DNA from: Pseudomonadota bacterium
GTDB lineage: Bacteria > Pseudomonadota > Gammaproteobacteria > Burkholderiales > Rhodocyclaceae
Direction: 5' to 3'
Length of the DNA stretch: 47,542 bases
Assembly: GCA_018241665.1 (NCBI GenBank)
Contig: JAFEDK010000011.1
Coordinates: 1-47,542, forward strand
Shown here: positions 35,591-44,088 of the stretch, one piece after another
Numbering within the stretch: the stretch's first letter is position 1
How the letters are laid out: each line of letters begins with the position of its first letter
Program-made: the position numbers and the translations under genes
Notes under the pieces: generated by a model
Told to the model about the DNA's origin: nothing
The model's database searches: none
The model's input: only the letters and a program-made list of their open reading frames with translations

Positions 35591-35597
35591 GAAACAT

Positions 35598-35642
35598 TGG
35601 TCGGGGCGGCGGGATTCGAACTCGCTACCCCTTGCACCCCAT
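35598..35642. repeat. attL: duplicated 3' part of tRNA-Pro(GGG)
   Basis: 45 bases identical to 44011-44055 except one (T for G at the 29th position). It contains the CCA end, the T-arm and the start of the anticodon arm of the tRNA, and then diverges. It marks the left boundary of the integrated element. Confidence 0.95.
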
Positions 35643-35765: not shown

Positions 35766-35793
35766 CGCCAAGGTGTCACCAAAAGTGTCACCA
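35766..35793 (+). repeat. Integrase arm-type sites, left copy
   Basis: 28 bases identical to 43926-43953, holding the direct repeat GTGTCACC-AAAA-GTGTCACC. One copy lies near each att site, as expected for lambda-integrase arm binding. Confidence 0.65.
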
Positions 35794-35810
35794 GTCACAG
35801 GGGGTTGATG

Positions 35811-37142
35811 ATGGGCAAGCTGAACGACAAGGCAATCAAGGCCGCAAAGGCTGATGATGCCGACGCATTTCTGAGCGACGGCGGCGGGCTCTACCTGCGG
35901 GTGCGAGTGTCTGGTTCCAAGGTTTGGCTGTACCGGTACAAGACCGGATCCAAAACCCGGTGGCTTGAAATTGGAACCTACCCGGAACTTCCCCTTGCCG
36001 ATGCGCGCGGGCTGGCAGTTCAAATTACGGCCAAGCGGAAGCAGGGCATCGACCCCATAGAAGAACGTGAGAACGAGGAAGCGCGGAGGCGCGCAGAGGC
36101 GGAAGCGCAAGCCGCTGAGCGGGCCAAGATCGATGCCCGAATCACGGTCCACAATCTGTTCGAGCGCTGGGCATCTGTCGATCTGATCCGCCGCAAGGAT
36201 GGCGGCGCGGAAGTCCGGCGCATGTTTGAAAAGGACGTGCTGCCGATCATCGGCACTCTGGCTGTCGAGGACGTGCGAAAAGGCCACATTACCGGCGTGA
36301 CGGATGCCCTCCTGGCGCGCGGCGTACCGCGGATGGCAAAGCTCATATTCGGCCTGATTCGGCAGATGTTCCGCTTCGCGGTGGATCGCGACATGATCGA
36401 ATTTGAGCCGTCCGCCAGCATCCGAAAGGCGAAGATCGGCGGCAAGGACACCGAGCGCGACCGGGTGCTATCCGAGGATGAAGTCAGGGCGCTGACACGG
36501 CAGCTTCCGCAGTCTGGATTGTCGGAGTCGGCGCAGCGGGCCGTCTGGATCGCGTTTTCGACGTGCTGCCGGATTGGGGAACTGATGGCCGCACGCTGGG
36601 AGCACGTGGATTTCGAGCGCGGCACATGGTGGATTCCGCCGGAGCACAGCAAGAACGGAAAGGCCCACACCGTGGCGCTTTCCGACTTTGCCCTGGCCCA
36701 CTTCCGGGCCTTGAATGACACAGCCCGGCATCGAGGCGCGGAGACTTGGATTTTCCCCAACCGCTATGGCACTGGTTCGGTGTGCCCCAAGACCGTGACC
36801 AAACAACTCGGCGACCGCCAACGCCCGGGCCTGCCGCCGATGAAGGGCAGGGCAAAGGCCGAGCTGTCCGATACCCTGGTGCTCGCCGGAGGGAAGTGGG
36901 GGCCGCATGACCTGCGCCGCACTGGTGCAACGATGATGGTGGAGCTTGGCGTCCTGCCGGAAGTGGCAGAACGCTGCCTAAACCATACCGAGCAAAACCG
37001 CGTGAAACGAACCTACCAGCGGCACAGCTACGCGAACGAGATGCGAGAGGCTTGGCGTCTGCTGGGCGAACGCCTGGATCTGCTGACTCGTACCGATGCT
37101 GCCAACGTGGTGCCCTTGCACACGGCCAAGAATGCGGCCTGA
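35811..37142 (+). CDS. int: Tyrosine-recombinase integrase (P4 type, DUF4102 N-terminus)
   Basis: 443 residues. The N-terminal arm-binding DUF4102 domain (FLSDGGGLYLRVRVSGSKVWLYRY, LEIGTYPELPLADAR) is followed by a core-binding domain and a catalytic domain: R in STCCRIGELMAARWEHVD, K in PEHSKNGKAH, GPHDLRRTGATMM (HxxR), H in LNHTEQ and nucleophile Y in RTYQRHSY. Three start codons lie together (TTG, ATG, ATG); the ATG at 35811 has the best spacing from AGGGGG. It integrates the element into tRNA-Pro. Confidence 0.95.
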   Translation: MGKLNDKAIKAAKADDADAFLSDGGGLYLRVRVSGSKVWLYRYKTGSKTRWLEIGTYPELPLADARGLAVQITAKRKQGIDPIEERENEEARRRAEAEAQAAERAKIDARITVHNLFERWASVDLIRRKDGGAEVRRMFEKDVLPIIGTLAVEDVRKGHITGVTDALLARGVPRMAKLIFGLIRQMFRFAVDRDMIEFEPSASIRKAKIGGKDTERDRVLSEDEVRALTRQLPQSGLSESAQRAVWIAFSTCCRIGELMAARWEHVDFERGTWWIPPEHSKNGKAHTVALSDFALAHFRALNDTARHRGAETWIFPNRYGTGSVCPKTVTKQLGDRQRPGLPPMKGRAKAELSDTLVLAGGKWGPHDLRRTGATMMVELGVLPEVAERCLNHTEQNRVKRTYQRHSYANEMREAWRLLGERLDLLTRTDAANVVPLHTAKNAA

Positions 37143-37280
37143 TGAACGCGCAAAACTTTGCGCGTTCGTGTTGTCCCCTGTCCCCGCAAGAAGTGAGAAA
37201 AGTAGACTTCCCTAAAATTTAATGGCAATGGAATAATTCGGTTGCCCTCAAAATCGGCTGGCTGGCCGAGATTTCACCAT

Positions 37281-37387
37281 CCTAGTGTTTTTTCGTGGGG
37301 ACAAGCGGGGACACGGGGACAACCAGTAATGACGCGGGTTTCGGCGTCCCCACTACCTGTCCCCGCACTGGGGACTGTGGGGACAAA
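37281..37387. repeat. 107-bp inverted repeat, left arm, with GGGGACA iterons
   Basis: Reverse complement of 43713-43819 at 104/107 positions, no indel. It holds GGGGACA four times in one direction and TGTCCCC in the other, plus an AT patch (TTTTTT). The 299-base region after int (37143-37441) holds no gene; an extra TGTCCCC cluster lies at 37170-37187. Confidence 0.93.
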
Positions 37388-37441
37388 TCGGCGGGGACGG
37401 GGGCAATCAGGAGTGAATCCGCAAGAAAATGCAGATGATGT

Positions 37442-38128
37442 TCAATTGTGGTTCAGCGTTTGAGCCAATTTCTCGGCAGTCTCGTTTATCCTGAGCTGAG
37501 CCTGTTTCATGGCGGCTAGGAGTTCGCTATAAGCGCTCATGTGTGCCTCTGTTGGAGTCGGCATGGGCGATCCAGCAATGGAATGCTGTTTATATTGCTC
37601 CACTCTTTCTGTCATTCCTTTGGACATCCATAGCTGAAATTCCGAAATTGCCTTCATGAGCGATTGGTGGTCAGTTTTCAGTTCAGGAAGGTAAAGCGAC
37701 ATATACATAGAAGCGCTGTAGATCGGATCTCCACCAGATGGAGGATCTGCATCGAAAAAGCTGTGGCTCATTTCTGCGGTTTGATAATCGATCGCTGCGG
37801 CAATGGCCACTATGTAGCTTTCTAGCTTCTCTCTCTTCTGCCACTGGAGCTTTTCTGAACGCTCTGCGAGTCGTTGAATATCGACCTTCACTGTTTCCGC
37901 AAGTGTCGTGGTTTCCTTTAGTTGTCTCTTGATCTCATCGAAATCTGCGGTCAGAGCAAGGCGCTCAGCTCGTTTTGAGAAGTAGGCGGCCAAGAATGAA
38001 CCCGCAGCGGACAGGATCACGCTGAGGCAGGCCAGGACGATATAAAACAACCAGTTGTTGAGTATGGTTTGATTCGCGATTTCCGCAGCGAGCAGGCGAA
38101 TTGTGTCAGGGGTGAGAGCAGTCATCAT
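37442..38128 (-). CDS. Membrane-anchored coiled-coil protein, satellite cargo, unknown
   Basis: About 228 residues on the strand opposite to all other element genes and visibly richer in A/T than its neighbours. One membrane helix (WLFYIVLACLSVILSAAGSFLAA) near the N-terminus is followed by a long predicted coiled coil (about 50-100: KRAERLALTADFDEIKRQLKETT...) and a helical C-terminal domain. The start at 38128 or 38125 (MMTALTP) is uncertain, as the ribosome site is weak. In satellites this position often carries anti-phage or host-modifying genes, but no known family is recognised. Confidence 0.78.
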   Translation of the reverse strand: MMTALTPDTIRLLAAEIANQTILNNWLFYIVLACLSVILSAAGSFLAAYFSKRAERLALTADFDEIKRQLKETTTLAETVKVDIQRLAERSEKLQWQKREKLESYIVAIAAAIDYQTAEMSHSFFDADPPSGGDPIYSASMYMSLYLPELKTDHQSLMKAISEFQLWMSKGMTERVEQYKQHSIAGSPMPTPTEAHMSAYSELLAAMKQAQLRINETAEKLAQTLNHN

Positions 38129-38206
38129 ATGCAAAGGGGAATTTAAAGTTGTACTTCGATATCCTAACTGGATCACGATCAAGTGCTGCACCACTTGACG
38201 CCCTTG

Positions 38207-38465
38207 CACCGCACGTCTGATACTTTCCCCGCCCCTGAAACAGAAGGGGCCTGGGCGTCGCGGCCCGGCAATCTACAGGCCGACAGGCCGCGCAAGCGGT
38301 TTTTTCACGTCGGTTGCATGGCTACGCCTGTTCAATGGTGGGGCCGTGTGGGAGGGCGCAAGCCCTGCCGGTTTCCTGTAGGCCGGTCCGCGAACCCGCA
38401 CGGTTCCGCCACCCCCTCGTCGCGGAGGGGAGCGGAGAATCAGACCGCACTACGGGAGTTTCACC
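38207..38465 (+). promoter_or_regulatory. Ash/P4-immunity-like structured leader
   Basis: One open frame carries a segment resembling the P4 Ash/Icd small-protein family (RFFHVGCMATPVQWWGRVGG..., then NPHGSATPSSRRGAEN). The DNA is full of hairpins (GGGCGCAAGCCC, GGCCT...AGGCC). In P4 this region encodes the CI immunity RNA and transcription terminators ahead of the replication operon. Whether the Ash-like peptide is translated, and from which start, is not clear. Bases 38129-38206 hold only the upstream region of the reverse-strand gene. Confidence 0.45.
38288..38305 (+). terminator. Intrinsic terminator inside the leader
   Basis: CCGC-GCAA-GCGG followed by TTTTTT, extendable upstream. Its place ahead of the replication genes fits an immunity-type attenuator. 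Confidence 0.6.
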
Positions 38466-38549
38466 ATGCACAACATCACTACAGGCATCTTCGCCCGCTT
38501 CGCTCTCTACCTCAGCCTGCGCCAGATCGACGGGAGGGCCGCAGCATGA
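38466..38549 (+). CDS. 27-residue small ORF coupled to the next gene
   Basis: MHNITTGIFARFALYLSLRQ and seven more residues. GGGAG precedes the ATG by seven bases, and the TGA overlaps the ATG of the next gene (ATGA). It contains a hydrophobic patch. It may be a leader peptide or a real small protein; no family recognised. Confidence 0.5.
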   Translation: MHNITTGIFARFALYLSLRQIDGRAAA

Positions 38550-38851
38550 GCACGCCCCAGAACGCCTTCAAGCCTTTTTCCTGGCTCTCCCCCGACGCCG
38601 AATATCTGCCCGGTGCCCAGCACGCCGCGGACACCTACGACGCAGCCAAAGGCATCGCCTTGCTTCTTGAAATGGTGGAGGAATCAGACCTCGCAATCGA
38701 AGGGGGAGGCGTGCCGAACTTCAACCCCGTACAGCGTTCGGCGCTACTCCGCATGGCTATGGCTTCGGCCCGCATGCTTGAGAACGAAGCCTGGAAGCAC
38801 ATCGGGTGGCTTAATACCCATGGTGTAGCACGGGCCAAAGCCGCAGCTTGA
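38546..38851 (+). CDS. Small satellite protein, unknown
   Basis: 101 residues beginning MSTPQNAFKPFSWLSP, mostly helical (GIALLLEMVEESDLA, RSALLRMAMASARMLENEA). Similar small acidic proteins follow the Ash-like leader in other proteobacterial satellites and prophages. GGGAGG lies eight bases before the ATG. The frame is open upstream through the Ash-like segment, so an N-terminally longer product is conceivable. Confidence 0.65.
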   Translation: MSTPQNAFKPFSWLSPDAEYLPGAQHAADTYDAAKGIALLLEMVEESDLAIEGGGVPNFNPVQRSALLRMAMASARMLENEAWKHIGWLNTHGVARAKAAA

Positions 38852-38986
38852 TACAACTTGACCGCCCTGCGAAACGTCGTGTAACTTCGTTTCCATACCC
38901 TGTAGCAAGTGCCGGCGCGACCGGTCGGGGCGGTCATCCGGCAACTGGCGAACCAAGCAACACGCCAGACAAGATCGCAAAAAATA

Positions 38987-39088
38987 GGCACCGCAACGGT
39001 GCCGACTGAATAGGCGGCAGTCCGTATCTAGCCAGACGGATAACTTATTCAGGGGCGGTAATGGGGGTTATGGCGGCAACTTGCCGCC
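38987..39088 (+). promoter_or_regulatory. Hairpins and palindromes upstream of the AlpA-like gene
   Basis: GGCACCG-CAA-CGGTGCC (38987-39003) without a U-run, and a 17-bp palindrome GGCGGCAACTTGCCGCC (39072-39088) 40 bases before the AlpA-like start. These are candidate operator or RNA-structure sites; the 277-base gap holds no gene. Confidence 0.4.
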
Positions 39089-39128
39089 CACACTCCAAAC
39101 CGCGGGCGGCTCAACAGGAGTCCGCCGA

Positions 39129-39383
39129 ATGGCTACCCCTCGCACCCCCGAAACATCCGCGTCGTCCATCGTCCTGCTGGGCCAGCTCCCAGCTGAAGGC
39201 TACGTCCGGCAATCGCAGCTCATCCCCGCCATCGTTCCGTTTTCGCCACCGACGCTCTGGCGGAAGGTGAAGGCCGGCACGTTCCCCAAGCCGGTGAAGC
39301 TCTCGCCCCGCATCACTGCGTGGCGTGTGGAGGATGTGCGCGCCTGGCTCGCAAACCCCAACGTCAGCGGGGGTGCTGCATGA
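39129..39383 (+). CDS. AlpA-like transcriptional regulator
   Basis: 84 residues with the AlpA/MerR-like winged helix: QLIPAIVPFSPPTLWRKVKAGTFPKPVKLSPRITAWRVEDVRAWLA. AlpA proteins activate excision and satellite genes in P4 and PICI elements. AGGAG lies eight bases before the ATG. Its stop overlaps the next start (ATGA). Confidence 0.9.
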   Translation: MATPRTPETSASSIVLLGQLPAEGYVRQSQLIPAIVPFSPPTLWRKVKAGTFPKPVKLSPRITAWRVEDVRAWLANPNVSGGAA

Positions 39384-39910
39384 CGACGAAGAACGACAAA
39401 AAAGCCGCTCGGGGGATGACGCCCCCGGCGGCTTTGGATACTGCATTCGGTCCCTCAAATCATACCGGAAACGCTGCTACTCACAACAAAGCCAAACGTC
39501 GCCGCGAGCTCAAGCGCGCTGACCATCAAGCCCTTCGTGCTCAAACCCACCTTCTTTGCCTTGAGGATGCACCTTGGAAGGACGATGATCGGGCGTGGTT
39601 TGCCGCGCATCCCACCCGTTCATTCCGCCTTCGTCGTCTGTACCCTGGCGAGTTCCCCGCGGCGACTCTGGGCAATGCGACTCATGTAATCGTCCGACAG
39701 CTTCGCCCAGGGTTCCGCGACAAGCATCTGGCCGGCGACGCACGCGGAGGGGCTGACCTCGACGCTTTGCCCGACAGCGATGCTATCGCAATGGTCCTGC
39801 GTGACGAGTTCGCACAAGCCGCAGCGAGCGGAGATCCATTCCCGTTGCGGCGCGCGGTTGATCGTGCGGCCCTCATGGTCAACGCGGCAGGGAAAGGGGG
39901 CGTGCAATGA
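39380..39910 (+). CDS. Hypothetical satellite protein
   Basis: 176 residues, basic at the N-terminus (KAKRRRELKRADHQALRAQ) and with a central DDRAWFAAHPTRSFRLRRLYPGEF motif that recurs in phage-borne proteins of unknown role; the C-terminus is helical. It overlaps alpA upstream and the primase-helicase downstream by four bases each, so it is translated as part of that operon and may help replication. Confidence 0.75.
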   Translation: MTTKNDKKAARGMTPPAALDTAFGPSNHTGNAATHNKAKRRRELKRADHQALRAQTHLLCLEDAPWKDDDRAWFAAHPTRSFRLRRLYPGEFPAATLGNATHVIVRQLRPGFRDKHLAGDARGGADLDALPDSDAIAMVLRDEFAQAAASGDPFPLRRAVDRAALMVNAAGKGGVQ

Positions 39911-42900
39911 ACGCCCTTCTGAATTTGCCACCCCCACCGGCCGATGTGCTCACGATCATCCGTGATCCGCTGCGCCCTCTGGGCAAGCGATTTACCCGTC
40001 AGCCCGATGGCCGCGTGGAGAAGTGCCAGCAGGTTGCGCCGTCGGTCTGCTATGCCCGGATGGAGCGTGTTCCCGATATCAACGCGTTGGCCGCGCTGCT
40101 TGAGCGTGTCGGTGGCGATGAGCACTCGGCGATCATCAACAGCCGTTTCGTTGGCCCTGATGTTGGCGAGCAGTTCGTCATCCTGTCCGAAGGCGAGATC
40201 GAGCGGCGGTATGGCATCGAAGGCCGTGGGCAAACAGCCGGCGTGCATCCGGTGGAAAACGACCCGGAAGGCTGCACGAAGGCAATGGGCCGTTTCGCCG
40301 AAAACGTGGAGCCCTCGGCTTGGCAGATCCTCGACCGTGACACGGACGAGCACACACCGCCCGAGCTGGCGGCCCTCGACTTCAGCGAATGGCTGGAGCG
40401 GGTCGGCGAGCTGCTGCCAGGAGTGGGGCTGTTCGACTGGGCACACGCGGCCTCTACCTCGAGCCGGGTGCTACTCGACGACAAGCCGGTCGGCCGCGGT
40501 AATGGGCACACCTGGATCAAGCTGCGGGATCCACAGGACGTCGAGCGCATGCGCGGCCTGCTGCCGTTCCGAGCAATGGCTGCAGGCCTGTCATGGATGA
40601 AGCCCAGGCACAGCCGAAGCACGGGCGAAGTGATCGGGCAGAGCCCGGCGACGATCATCGATCCGTCCGTCTGGTCCCGCGGGCGCGTGATCTTCGTCGG
40701 TAAGCCCGTCGTCGAAGGCAAAGGGCTCACTGTGGCCCCGCAGTCCGTCGAGATCGCCGCGGGATTGCTGGGGGCGGAGTTCCCCACGGAGGCAATCGAA
40801 ACCCCGCCGCCCGAGCGGGTGCGGGAGATTGCCCAGTCCGTGGGATGGGACGTGCAGATCCGCAGCAGCGCGGCGGGCCTTGCCGCCGATGCCTACGATC
40901 TGGCCCTGGACACGGAAATCGATGTCAAAGGGCATGGCCTGATGACGGTGCGCGAGGCGGCTGAACTGCTCCCCGCCGGCGGGAAGCTGCGATGCCAGGC
41001 GCCGTTCCGGGCGTCCGAATCGTGGGCCGGCGTCCTGCGGCGCGGCATGGATGACCGGCTCTGCGTGTTCGACTCGGGCACCCACACCACGCACTGGCTC
41101 AACGCCGCGGATACCTTCGGGGACGACTTCGACGCGCTGCCGCCGCCATCGGCCGATGATGCCGCCCAGCAGGCGGCAATCCGCCAGCGCAACGCGGAGA
41201 AGGCTCCCGCGTCATTCGATTATGCGGGTGGTCGTTTCAAGGCCACGCAGGGCGGGGTGTTTTTCATCGGCACCGACAAGGACGGCGAGGCGATGCCGCC
41301 TATTTGGCTCTGCCCGCGCCTGGACGTTCTGGCAATGACCCGCGATGCCAAGTCGGGCGAGTGGGGGCGTTTGCTGGGGTGGCAGGACGCCGACGGCGTT
41401 GCCCACCGCTGGGCCATGCCGATGGAACTGCTGCAGGGGGACGGATCTGATGTGCGGCGTGAGCTTGCCCGCCTCGGCCTCAACATTGCTCCGGGCAAGC
41501 GGGCGCGGGAACTTCTGACCGCATATCTGCAGGTGTGCCCAATCAAAGCCCGCGCTCGGTGTGTGGATCGGCTGGGTTGGCATGGTGGTGTCTTTGTCAC
41601 GCCTGCGGAGTCAGTCGGGCAGGCCGGCGAAATCGTGGTCTTCCAGAATCAGCATGCCGTTGAACCTGCGCTCTCTGTTGCGGGGACGGTGGGCGAGTGG
41701 CGCGAACACGTCGCTGCTCTGGCTGCCGGCAATTCCCGGCTTGCGTTTGCGATCTGCACGGCGCTGGCCGCCCCTCTGGCCGAGCTGGCGGGCGAAGACT
41801 CCGGCGGATTTCACCTGCGCGGTGCTTCGTCTTCTGGAAAGACCACTGCACTCAAGGTGGCTGCATCGGTGTGGGGCGACCCCGCCAGCTACCCGCGCCT
41901 GTGGCGTGCGACGGCCAACGGCTTGGAAGGGTTGGCGGCGCTGCACAACGACGGTCTGTTGATCCTCGATGAACTGAGCCAAATCGACCCGCGAGAGGCG
42001 GGCGAAGCCGCATACCTGCTGGCAAACGGCCAAGGCAAAGCCCGTGCATCGCGTACCGGCGCGGCGCGCCAGTCCGCACGCTGGCGGCTGCTGTTTCTGT
42101 CCGCAGGGGAGGAGTCACTATCTGCGCTGATGGCGCGCACTGGAAGGAAGGCTAACGCAGGGCAAGAAATCCGCTTGGCCGATATAGAGGCGGACGCAGG
42201 GGCGGGTATGGGGGCGTTCGAAGTGCTGCACACCCAGCCTAGTCCGGAGGCGCTGGCCTTGGCCGTGAAGGACGCAGCAACCCGCTATCACGGTGCTGCA
42301 GGCTTGGCATGGTTGCGCTGCATCGTGCGTGATCGTGCAGAACTGGCGAGCAGCCTGCCGGGGATTGTTCGGCGCTTCGTTGGGGATGCGGTCCCTGCCG
42401 ACGCCGCCGGGCAAGTGGGGCGTGTCGCTCGGCGTTTCGCTCTGGTCGCCGCGGCTGGGGAATTGGCGACCGGTTACGGTCTCACAGGCTGGACAGAGGG
42501 CGAGGCCACCCGCGGTGTGCGTGCCTGCTTCGACGCTTGGCTTGCCGGCTTTGGCGGCACTGGTAACCGCGAGGAGCGTGCCATGTTGGCTCAGGTGCGG
42601 GCCTTCTTCGAAGCGCACGGCGCAAGCCGCTTCCAGCCTTGGGACGATCTGGATAACCCCGCCTTTGAGCCTCGCACAATCAACCGGGCGGGCTTTGTGC
42701 GGCTCAGGGACGACGGGGGACGTGACTTCTTCGTGTTACCGGAGGCCTACAGGCGCGAGGTCTGTGCTGGATTTGACGTGAAGGCCGTTACCCGTGCGCT
42801 ACTCGCCGCCGGCTGGCTGGTGCCAGCAAAGGATCGCCGCTCTACACACAAGCCTCGCTTGCCTGGGCTGGGTTCGACTCGCTGCTATCTCTTCAGCGCC

Positions 42901-42945
42901 AGTATGTGGGCTGACGATGATGACCGCCTGTCGGTGATCGAATGA
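39907..42945 (+). CDS. Satellite primase-helicase (AEP primase + DUF927 helicase)
   Basis: 1012 residues. The N-terminal ~300 residues look like an archaeo-eukaryotic primase domain: metal motif DRDTD (143-147), then TSSRVLL and GHTWIKLRD. Residues ~460-830 are a DUF927/P4-alpha-like SF3-type helicase: Walker A GASSSGKTT (639-647), Walker B LLILDELSQ (~684-692), then GEAAYLLANGQGKARAS. A C-terminal region of ~180 residues may bind the origin. It probably starts replication of the excised element from the iteron blocks. ATGA overlap with the gene before. Confidence 0.9.
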   Translation: MNALLNLPPPPADVLTIIRDPLRPLGKRFTRQPDGRVEKCQQVAPSVCYARMERVPDINALAALLERVGGDEHSAIINSRFVGPDVGEQFVILSEGEIERRYGIEGRGQTAGVHPVENDPEGCTKAMGRFAENVEPSAWQILDRDTDEHTPPELAALDFSEWLERVGELLPGVGLFDWAHAASTSSRVLLDDKPVGRGNGHTWIKLRDPQDVERMRGLLPFRAMAAGLSWMKPRHSRSTGEVIGQSPATIIDPSVWSRGRVIFVGKPVVEGKGLTVAPQSVEIAAGLLGAEFPTEAIETPPPERVREIAQSVGWDVQIRSSAAGLAADAYDLALDTEIDVKGHGLMTVREAAELLPAGGKLRCQAPFRASESWAGVLRRGMDDRLCVFDSGTHTTHWLNAADTFGDDFDALPPPSADDAAQQAAIRQRNAEKAPASFDYAGGRFKATQGGVFFIGTDKDGEAMPPIWLCPRLDVLAMTRDAKSGEWGRLLGWQDADGVAHRWAMPMELLQGDGSDVRRELARLGLNIAPGKRARELLTAYLQVCPIKARARCVDRLGWHGGVFVTPAESVGQAGEIVVFQNQHAVEPALSVAGTVGEWREHVAALAAGNSRLAFAICTALAAPLAELAGEDSGGFHLRGASSSGKTTALKVAASVWGDPASYPRLWRATANGLEGLAALHNDGLLILDELSQIDPREAGEAAYLLANGQGKARASRTGAARQSARWRLLFLSAGEESLSALMARTGRKANAGQEIRLADIEADAGAGMGAFEVLHTQPSPEALALAVKDAATRYHGAAGLAWLRCIVRDRAELASSLPGIVRRFVGDAVPADAAGQVGRVARRFALVAAAGELATGYGLTGWTEGEATRGVRACFDAWLAGFGGTGNREERAMLAQVRAFFEAHGASRFQPWDDLDNPAFEPRTINRAGFVRLRDDGGRDFFVLPEAYRREVCAGFDVKAVTRALLAAGWLVPAKDRRSTHKPRLPGLGSTRCYLFSASMWADDDDRLSVIE

Positions 42946-43164
42946 AGGTGCAAAAAACTGCGTGCAACTTGCACCGTCTTTTGCAACACGGTGCAAGTGT
43001 TGCAGGTGCAGTTCCGTCCGGTTGCAAATGCCCGCACGCATCGCGCATGCGAGGGTTTGCGCAAAGGTACTCCCGGAGCACCTGCACGCACGGGGACGGA
43101 GAGCCGCGAGTTTCGACAGTTTTTCAGGCCCCTCGGGGTTGTTGGTGGTGCCTAGGAGTTTGTC
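42946..43164 (+). promoter_or_regulatory. Iteron-like TGCAA repeats and hairpin after the primase
   Basis: Between the primase and terS lie GTGCAACTTGCAC (42962-42974), a 10-bp hairpin CTTGCACCGT/ACGGTGCAAG (42968-42997) and further TTGCA and GGTGCA copies. A 79-codon frame crosses the region from an ATGA at the primase stop, but its Cys/Arg-rich product and the repeat content argue against a gene. Confidence 0.5.
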
Positions 43165-43683
43165 ATGATGAGCAAGATTGATCGTTCTACCGCCGGGGCT
43201 GCACGGGAAACGAACAAGGCCGGCCTGGCTGAGTTCTTCGGGGTGTCGCTGCCGACCATTGACGCTTGGATTCGCAAGGGGTGCCCGGCCGTCCAGCGCG
43301 GCAACCTATCGACGCCCTGGGTGTTTGACCTGCTGGCTGTCGCCGAGTGGCGCTTCTCTGGAAGTGCCGACAACGATGGCGAGCTCGATCCCGAGCGTCT
43401 TTCTCCTGCAGACCGCAAGGCCTGGTACGAGGGTGAGAGCCGCCGGCGCGACCTGCGCGAGCGTGACCGGGAGTTAATTCCCGCGGCAGAGGTGGAGCAG
43501 GCCGCGGCGACGGCCGTGGCCGCGATCGATGAGTCCATGCGGCACTTGCAGAGCAGGCTTGTGACGATGATCGATCTACCGCCGGACGCCATTACTTTGG
43601 TCGGAGGCTTGTTGCGGTCAGAACTTGAGGCATTGGAAGAACAGTTGTCTTCGATAACCAGCCGCCCCGCGTCGGGGGGCTGA
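43165..43683 (+). CDS. Small terminase-like protein (Nu1/DUF1441 family)
   Basis: 172 residues with a winged-helix DNA-binding start (NKAGLAEFFGVSLPTIDAWIRKGCP) and a C-terminal helix, matching Nu1-type small terminase subunits of phages. The element has no large terminase. In PICIs a lone small terminase redirects helper-phage packaging to the island genome; that role is inferred here. AGGAG lies seven bases before the ATG. Confidence 0.8.
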   Translation: MMSKIDRSTAGAARETNKAGLAEFFGVSLPTIDAWIRKGCPAVQRGNLSTPWVFDLLAVAEWRFSGSADNDGELDPERLSPADRKAWYEGESRRRDLRERDRELIPAAEVEQAAATAVAAIDESMRHLQSRLVTMIDLPPDAITLVGGLLRSELEALEEQLSSITSRPASGG

Positions 43684-43712
43684 ATGCGGCCAATTTAGAA
43701 CCGCTTCCGGGT

Positions 43713-43819
43713 TTTGTCCCCACAGTCCCCAGTGCGGGGGCAGGTAGTGGGGACGCCGAAACCCGCGTCATTACTGGTTGTCCCCGTGTCCCCGCTTGTC
43801 CCCGCGAAAAAACGCTAGG
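43713..43819. repeat. 107-bp inverted repeat, right arm
   Basis: Reverse complement of 37281-37387 with three mismatches. Between here and attR (43684-44010) there is no gene: only this arm, a short motif GAATCCGCAAG (also near the left arm, same direction), the integrase arm repeat and the terminator. Confidence 0.93.
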
Positions 43820-43925
43820 GTGGAGCGTTGATCGAAAACGGTGGCGGGGGAGGTTGGCAGGGAATCCGCAAGGAATGCAGATTGCAGGAAACCCCCAGAC
43901 AAAAGGGGGGCTCGAGTGTCACCAG

Positions 43926-43953
43926 CGCCAAGGTGTCACCAAAAGTGTCACCA
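43926..43953 (+). repeat. Integrase arm-type sites, right copy
   Basis: Identical 28 bases to 35766-35793, same orientation, with the GTGTCACC pair, 57 bases from attR. Confidence 0.65.
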
Positions 43954-43993: not shown

Positions 43994-44010
43994 TAACTGC
44001 TTGATTCTTT

Positions 44011-44088
<78 letters not shown>

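Follow-up and report, generated by a model that had tools for sequence, protein, structure and literature searches.

The closest described relatives of the locus studied here are satellites with iteron-based origins. Phage P4 has two iteron regions, ori and crr, with mutually inverted iterons; crr begins 45 bp past the alpha stop codon, and the annotated type-1 repeats of ori are separated by gaps of 10/43/22/11/10 bp. PMC6092414 describes the origin of a phage-inducible chromosomal island (PICI) as a pair of iteron sets on either side of an AT-rich region; it reports that a plasmid with the rep-ori segment of EcCICFT073 yields colonies, that a rep-deleted plasmid yields none, and that the replicon supports plasmid maintenance. 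The origin of Gram-negative PICIs is placed downstream of pri in PMC10111431. According to PMC7581432, Cch of the staphylococcal cassette chromosome mec (SCCmec) contains DUF927 and is related to Rep of the Staphylococcus aureus pathogenicity island (SaPI) SaPIbov1. The subject of this study is a stretch of 47,542 nucleotides from a member of the Rhodocyclaceae (assembly GCA_018241665.1, contig JAFEDK010000011.1), referred to as the window. It holds an integrated element in which two inverted blocks of GGGGACA iterons bracket a gene for a DUF927 primase-helicase. In this P4/PICI-like satellite the blocks are very probably the two halves of the origin of replication, bound by the C-terminal domain of the DUF927 protein.

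Two inverted iteron blocks

Positions 37281-37387 and the reverse complement of 43713-43819 are identical at 104/107 bases. A first-pass annotation of the window had reported these 107-bp blocks around the satellite replication genes, and its count was reproduced exactly. The repeat extends to 37277-37387 and 43713-43823 with 107/111 identical bases and 6325 bp between the arms. All four differences over the 111 bp are T in block 1 and C in block 2, read in the orientation of block 1. The BLAST self-match has E = 1.4e-46, and when the block was searched against the 5.4-Mb assembly, just the two known places matched at E ≤ 0.001. In a genus set of 23 genomes, including the window's own, one other genome had a partial, 51-base match to the block. 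Plasmid sequences searched with block 1 by blastn gave partial matches only (E 0.008). Strand skew was uninformative.

The iterons had also been annotated in both directions, and the word positions do map to both strands within a block (Table 1). The window block has the layout of the type-1 repeats, namely two iterons, ~43 bp, an opposed iteron, ~22 bp and three iterons, with the same kind of strand string as P4 ori. One of the two opposed iterons is altered in block 2, and a further GGGGAC lies at 37393, outside the repeat. The replication genes are inside the arms and the integrase gene is outside. On the inferred circle the blocks would delimit a 6325-bp arc with the replication genes and an 1866-bp arc with the attachment site (att) and integrase.

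Block 1 is flanked by the 3' ends of int and a convergent 255-aa open reading frame (ORF), if the latter is a gene, and block 2 follows the last gene. Such positions at gene 3' ends, with opposed runs of G and C, might be expected of transcription terminators. We consider a role as terminators or operators highly improbable. The RNA fold of block 1, the only block folded, has a z-score of -1.3 and is equalled by 22/200 shuffles, and directly repeated iterons spaced 9-10 bp apart do not form the arms of a hairpin. No gene was seen to start beside the blocks, and an operator role is disfavoured because both blocks lie at gene 3' ends. An origin acting as an RNA hairpin was also considered and dropped, as the block 1 fold did not support it.

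Block layout in related elements

Relatives were sought in 199 genomes, of which 49, including the window's own, had a protein match at E ≤ 0.001. One further genome collection supplied 13 loci and viral contigs supplied 4; protein matches were also found in 20 phage and 67 plasmid records, a few of which were retrieved. Viral contigs searched with the window protein alone yielded no relative. Loci are designated by L numbers, and possible duplicates among genomes were kept in. An initial k-mer scan returned many GC-rich words and was dropped in favor of pattern, layout and dynamic-programming scans.

The strict block scan found 66 blocks in 721 kb (61 loci), compared with an average of 0.33 in three Markov shuffles of the same length, and none in positions 1-35590 of the window. 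When the iteron word was left free, the layout scan generated 100 matches in 780 kb (66 loci) versus 2 in one shuffle each; some of the 100 are weak single matches. The free-word scan recovers P4 ori without its iteron being supplied. In most printed blocks the order is an A/T tract, three iterons with 9-10-bp spacing, a core, an opposed iteron and two iterons, and the core often contains GCGGGTTTC. Separately, three consecutive GGGGACA direct repeats were seen in viral contigs L109, L110 and L111; the DNA examined had neither a DUF927 nor an integrase match.

In most elements the iteron word is four variable bases followed by ACA. The exceptions to ACA among 42 elements are GCA (L038, L052, L055 and L084), GAG (L056) and ACG (L068, L072 and L076). 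The word varies between elements and is common to both blocks, as in the two iteron regions of the window element. The first-pass annotation had held that related satellites with unrelated iterons would speak against it. Such words are found, but they are not counted as a refutation since the elements retain the layout, the pairing and the inversion, and their words follow the tail of the protein, as described below.

Pairing and orientation of the blocks

Seventy-five loci were scanned for pairs. The final scan flagged block pairs in 40/75, of which 39, the window and P4 included, are inverted and one is direct; three shuffles per locus gave no pairs. An earlier scan of 75 loci found 25 inverted and 0 direct pairs above threshold, although adjacent direct pairs could escape it. 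Orientation was judged from the iteron strands because iterons align in either direction with gaps.

The distance between the blocks differs among elements. Pairs are adjacent behind the DUF927 gene in, for example, L034, L043 and L048, lie 0.4-1 kb apart in L046 and most elements of the same genus, and straddle the DUF927 gene in L068, L069, L071 and L072. In split pairs one block is behind int and the other behind the replication gene. A block behind int was found in 10 elements, starting 18-154 bp past the int stop; in two of these, L037 and L057, the second block is poorly defined. In L059 a block precedes int and no second block was found.

The second block might be a spare, each block being a complete and independent origin with no obligate partner. 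The window blocks are near-identical, each has the A/T tract, the core and both iteron runs, and extra copies are known from L069 (a third copy) and from L033 and L048 (two pairs each). We regard this as unlikely, given that pairs recur across very different elements, inverted in 39/40 flagged loci, and that paired blocks differ in layout, as crr and ori of P4 do, in most elements from the genus to which the window belongs. It is similarly doubtful that inversion is a by-product, whereby direct near-identical repeats would delete the replication genes and inverted pairs survive. Inverted repeats cannot delete their interior by recombination, and the long-range pairs flagged are all inverted. 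Adjacent pairs, with the exception of L099, are inverted as well although deletion there costs just one block, and P4 crr is itself a tandem direct pair.

Identity between paired blocks

33 of the 40 pairs measured are 64-85% alike. Using hand-listed coordinates, 6/8 pairs more than 4 kb apart have an identity of 0.86-0.99, a range reached by 1/32 closer pairs (L048a). The window pair is 0.99 identical over the 88-bp block, while the best cross-element match is 0.87 (L047). That identity within the element exceeds identity across elements suggests homogenisation such as gene conversion, not base-by-base constraint. The near identity had been ascribed to strong selection or gene conversion, and it is the latter that agrees with these values. 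Judging from the aligned pairs, high block identity is dispensable for pairing. Long perfect palindromes are unstable, and closely spaced pairs may stay imperfect for this reason.

The suggestion that the blocks let the 6.3-kb interior flip, as a switch or through frequent homologous recombination, found no support. An inverted repeat of 111 bp with 96% identity is a possible recombination substrate, and the excess of within-element identity makes some homogenisation likely. Yet the integrase and replication genes are on one strand in 10/10 elements with a block behind int, and family searches recognised no recombinase gene in the element besides the integrase, with three ORFs lacking a family match. 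We view inversion of the interior as extremely unlikely.

The protein segment that covaries with the iteron

The iteron of each element was assigned manually, and for L037 the final base of the word was assumed. L033 was omitted as it has two words, and L048 was represented by the word near its gene. The covariation test used 28/42 proteins in three clades that have pairs <30% divergent. Where iterons differed, the proteins showed excess divergence that was strongest at residues 966-991. This segment scored 0.217, whereas the highest value reached when iterons were permuted within clades (1000 permutations, 188 windows) was 0.144. As an example, the L046 and L047 proteins are 89% identical; their tails differ, and so do their iterons, GTGGGAACA in L046 and GGGGACA in L047.

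L048 has an orphan C-terminal tail of another DUF927 allele at +301 to +673 past the DUF927 stop, and behind this tail lies another palindromic origin pair, the second in L048, whose iteron is not that of the first. This arrangement looks like the trace of an exchange of tail plus origin.

The C-terminal domain was predicted with a confidence (pLDDT, predicted local distance difference test) of 83, and we read the model as a winged helix. Residues 966-991 fall at a helix end and the strands that follow. The best PDB match of the model in Foldseek was SaPIbov1 Rep (E 0.0026, 9% identity), and next were pCW3 relaxosome protein entries with oriT DNA (E 0.02, 12-13% identity). By sequence, the DUF927 core matches that same entry for SaPIbov1, 8tch, as well as 5dgk, which was deposited as 'Active helicase'. 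Iteron binding by the C-terminal part of the 1012-residue protein, as proposed in the first-pass annotation, gains indirect support from two sides, the covariation of residues 966-991 with the iteron and the predicted resemblance of the domain to SaPIbov1 Rep.

The window protein was matched over residues 4-433 in L042 (Aromatoleum toluolicum; 62% in the best segment). In the other 12 loci of that search the match begins at about residue 400. It seems that the protein exchanges its N-terminal half and its helicase half as modules.

The probable origin and its proposed mechanism

The sequence evidence for an origin is strong. It comprises the repeat, its layout and recurrence, the pairing of blocks in inverted orientation and the way in which the iteron covaries with the tail of the protein. 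The split arrangement is most likely a two-block origin of the P4/PICI type, one half of which follows int and the other the replication operon. We infer excision, binding, a need for both blocks, and looping or two-ring loading. Excision would produce a circle of ~8.4 kb. In both blocks the GGGGACA iterons would be bound by the C-terminal domain of the DUF927 primase-helicase. The four variable bases ahead of ACA would be read by the end of the last helix of this domain and by the strands that follow (the wing). The bound protein would load as helicase rings, and DNA would melt at or beside the A/T tract. The halves would be separated by the replication genes (6.3 kb) on one side and by att and integrase (1.9 kb) on the other, much as in P4 ori/crr.

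A broader proposal is more tentative, and we hold it to be somewhat less probable than its negation. A large class of satellites may use one conserved origin module although their helicases (DUF927, P4 alpha and the PICI primase) are unrelated. The module would be a block of 4+ACA iterons present as two inverted copies that are adjacent or kilobases apart. The initiator would join the copies to load opposing helicases, and residues 966-991 of the window protein would read the variable bases, giving a specificity code that travels with the origin.

Several observations weigh against the reading of the blocks as a two-block origin. Final scanning left 35/75 loci unflagged; these include loci with pairs in other scans (for example L036 and L047), loci truncated at the end of a contig and loci showing a single block or no block at all, and absence of a pair is not established for them. 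L099, the sole direct pair flagged, lies at +60 to +281 after the gene. In plain alignments of the 40 pairs (hand-listed coordinates) the inverted orientation was better in 31/40 only. A partial Mantel test over all pairs of the 42 proteins gave an r of 0.11-0.12 for windows within 967-990, and the top window was 695-710 (r 0.36; permutation 95% 0.29). Because the all-pairs test showed no effect at the tail, support for the link between tail and iteron is confined to close range. Foldseek returned no match to the C-terminal model at E ≤ 0.001. In the comparison with P4, the run of three iterons is on the long-gap side in the window and on the short-gap side in P4 ori, and the P4 crr units lack the full block layout. 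Finally, P4 alpha and the PICI primase belong to a different family from the window protein, so the shared layout could be convergence.

If the reading as an origin is right, P4, PICIs and DUF927 satellites share one origin design despite different helicase families. This design would be recognisable in raw sequence without knowledge of the iteron, and would offer a means of detecting satellite replicons and sorting them into groups. How an initiator uses half-origins kilobases apart, and why these are inverted, are questions raised by the split form. Covariation with a short protein segment makes initiator-origin specificity, and hence satellite compatibility, directly testable.

The host element

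The blocks are part of an 8.4-kb P4-like island integrated in tRNA-Pro. Its att is a 46-nt direct repeat, 98% identical, with copies 8413 bp apart, one of which is inside the tRNA gene. With an integrase, AlpA, C4 RNA, primase-helicase and tRNA attachment site, the element has the hallmarks of P4-like satellites, and its gene content is that of a satellite of the P4 or PICI type. Seven ORFs of the element were searched, and there was no psu, delta or sid among their matches; a small-terminase-like gene is present instead. The C4 antisense RNA is the P4-type immunity RNA.

A perfect 28-bp direct repeat (35766-35793 and 43926-43953) was noticed near both element ends, with internal GTGTCACCA copies. 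These repeats are candidate integrase arm sites.

Table 1. Features of the element in the window
Feature	Position	Strand	Basis or remark
att left end, partial copy of tRNA-Pro 3' end	35597..35642		direct repeat
Tyrosine integrase	35805..37142	+	PF00589, PF13356, PF22022
Two extra inverted GGGGACA words, just 3' of integrase stop	37173..37185	-	outside repeat
Origin block 1 (putative)	37277..37387	+	repeat + iteron layout
Block 1 A/T tract	37288-37293		T6
Block 1 forward iterons	37297, 37307, 37315	+	
Block 1 core			CCAGTAATGACGCGGGTTTC
Block 1 opposed iterons	37346, 37359	-	
Block 1 distal forward iterons	37370, 37379	+	
255-aa ORF, convergent to int, between integrase and C4 RNA	37442..38209	-	no family match
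C4 antisense RNA	38331..38416	+	RF01695, 75.4 bits, gathering 45
101-aa ORF	38546..38851	+	no family match
AlpA-like regulator/excisionase	39129..39383	+	PF05930
176-aa ORF, overlaps primase start	39380..39910	+	no family match
1012-aa primase-helicase, DUF927 at residues 444-724	39907..42945	+	Pfam
DUF1441/small terminase subunit homologue	43165..43683	+	Nu1-like; Nu1 below Pfam cut-off
Origin block 2 (putative)	43713..43823	-	inverted copy of block 1
Block 2 A6 tract	43807-43812	+	
att right end, overlaps tRNA-Pro(ggg) 44011-44087 (-)	44010..44055		direct repeat

Comparison with P4, PICIs and SaPI/SCCmec elements

In the literature searched, which scarcely covered older P4 papers, we recognised no description of a split origin in DUF927 elements, and absence is not claimed. 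The known systems can be compared with the window element one by one.

SaPIbov1 Rep and SCCmec Cch have a helicase core related to that of the window protein. The latter is longer and only distantly similar to them (profile E about 1e-18 and 1e-16, respectively), and scores 49.6 bits with the NCBIfam Cch1 model, for which the cut-off is 700.

The PICI of E. coli CFT073, identified as such by gene content, has eleven GGTAGA words behind its primase, which form two inverted blocks of the same layout as those of the window, with gaps of 9/46/22/11/9 and 11/22/46/9. Its halves are adjacent behind rep, whereas those of the window are 6.3 kb apart with one behind int. The CFT073 primase contains D5_N, DUF5906 and Pox_D5, as does P4 alpha; the window protein has DUF927 only (Pfam). 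BLASTP of the window protein against P4 alpha or the CFT073 primase detected no similarity.

A DUF927 protein was also encountered in a P4-like satellite of E. coli (L106), which has psu and ogr/delta genes and a TOPRIM-DUF927 protein and adjoins a retron. Opposed iterons are visible by eye behind its DUF927 gene and were unflagged by the scan.

The window element carries a C4 RNA, as P4 does, together with an AlpA-type gene. The core of P4 ori and the window block both hold CAGTAATGAC, while the iteron is GGTGAACA in P4 and GGGGACA in the window. P4 crr is composed of two direct 120-bp units of another layout, whereas the window has a single copy per side, and the window blocks are near-identical copies, unlike ori and crr. 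P4 ori lies upstream of cI/epsilon, and block 1 lies behind int. The likeness to P4 ori/crr drawn in the first-pass annotation extends to layout, spacing, the position of crr and inversion, but not to the protein family. One origin layout serves two helicase families, whether through shared descent or through convergence.

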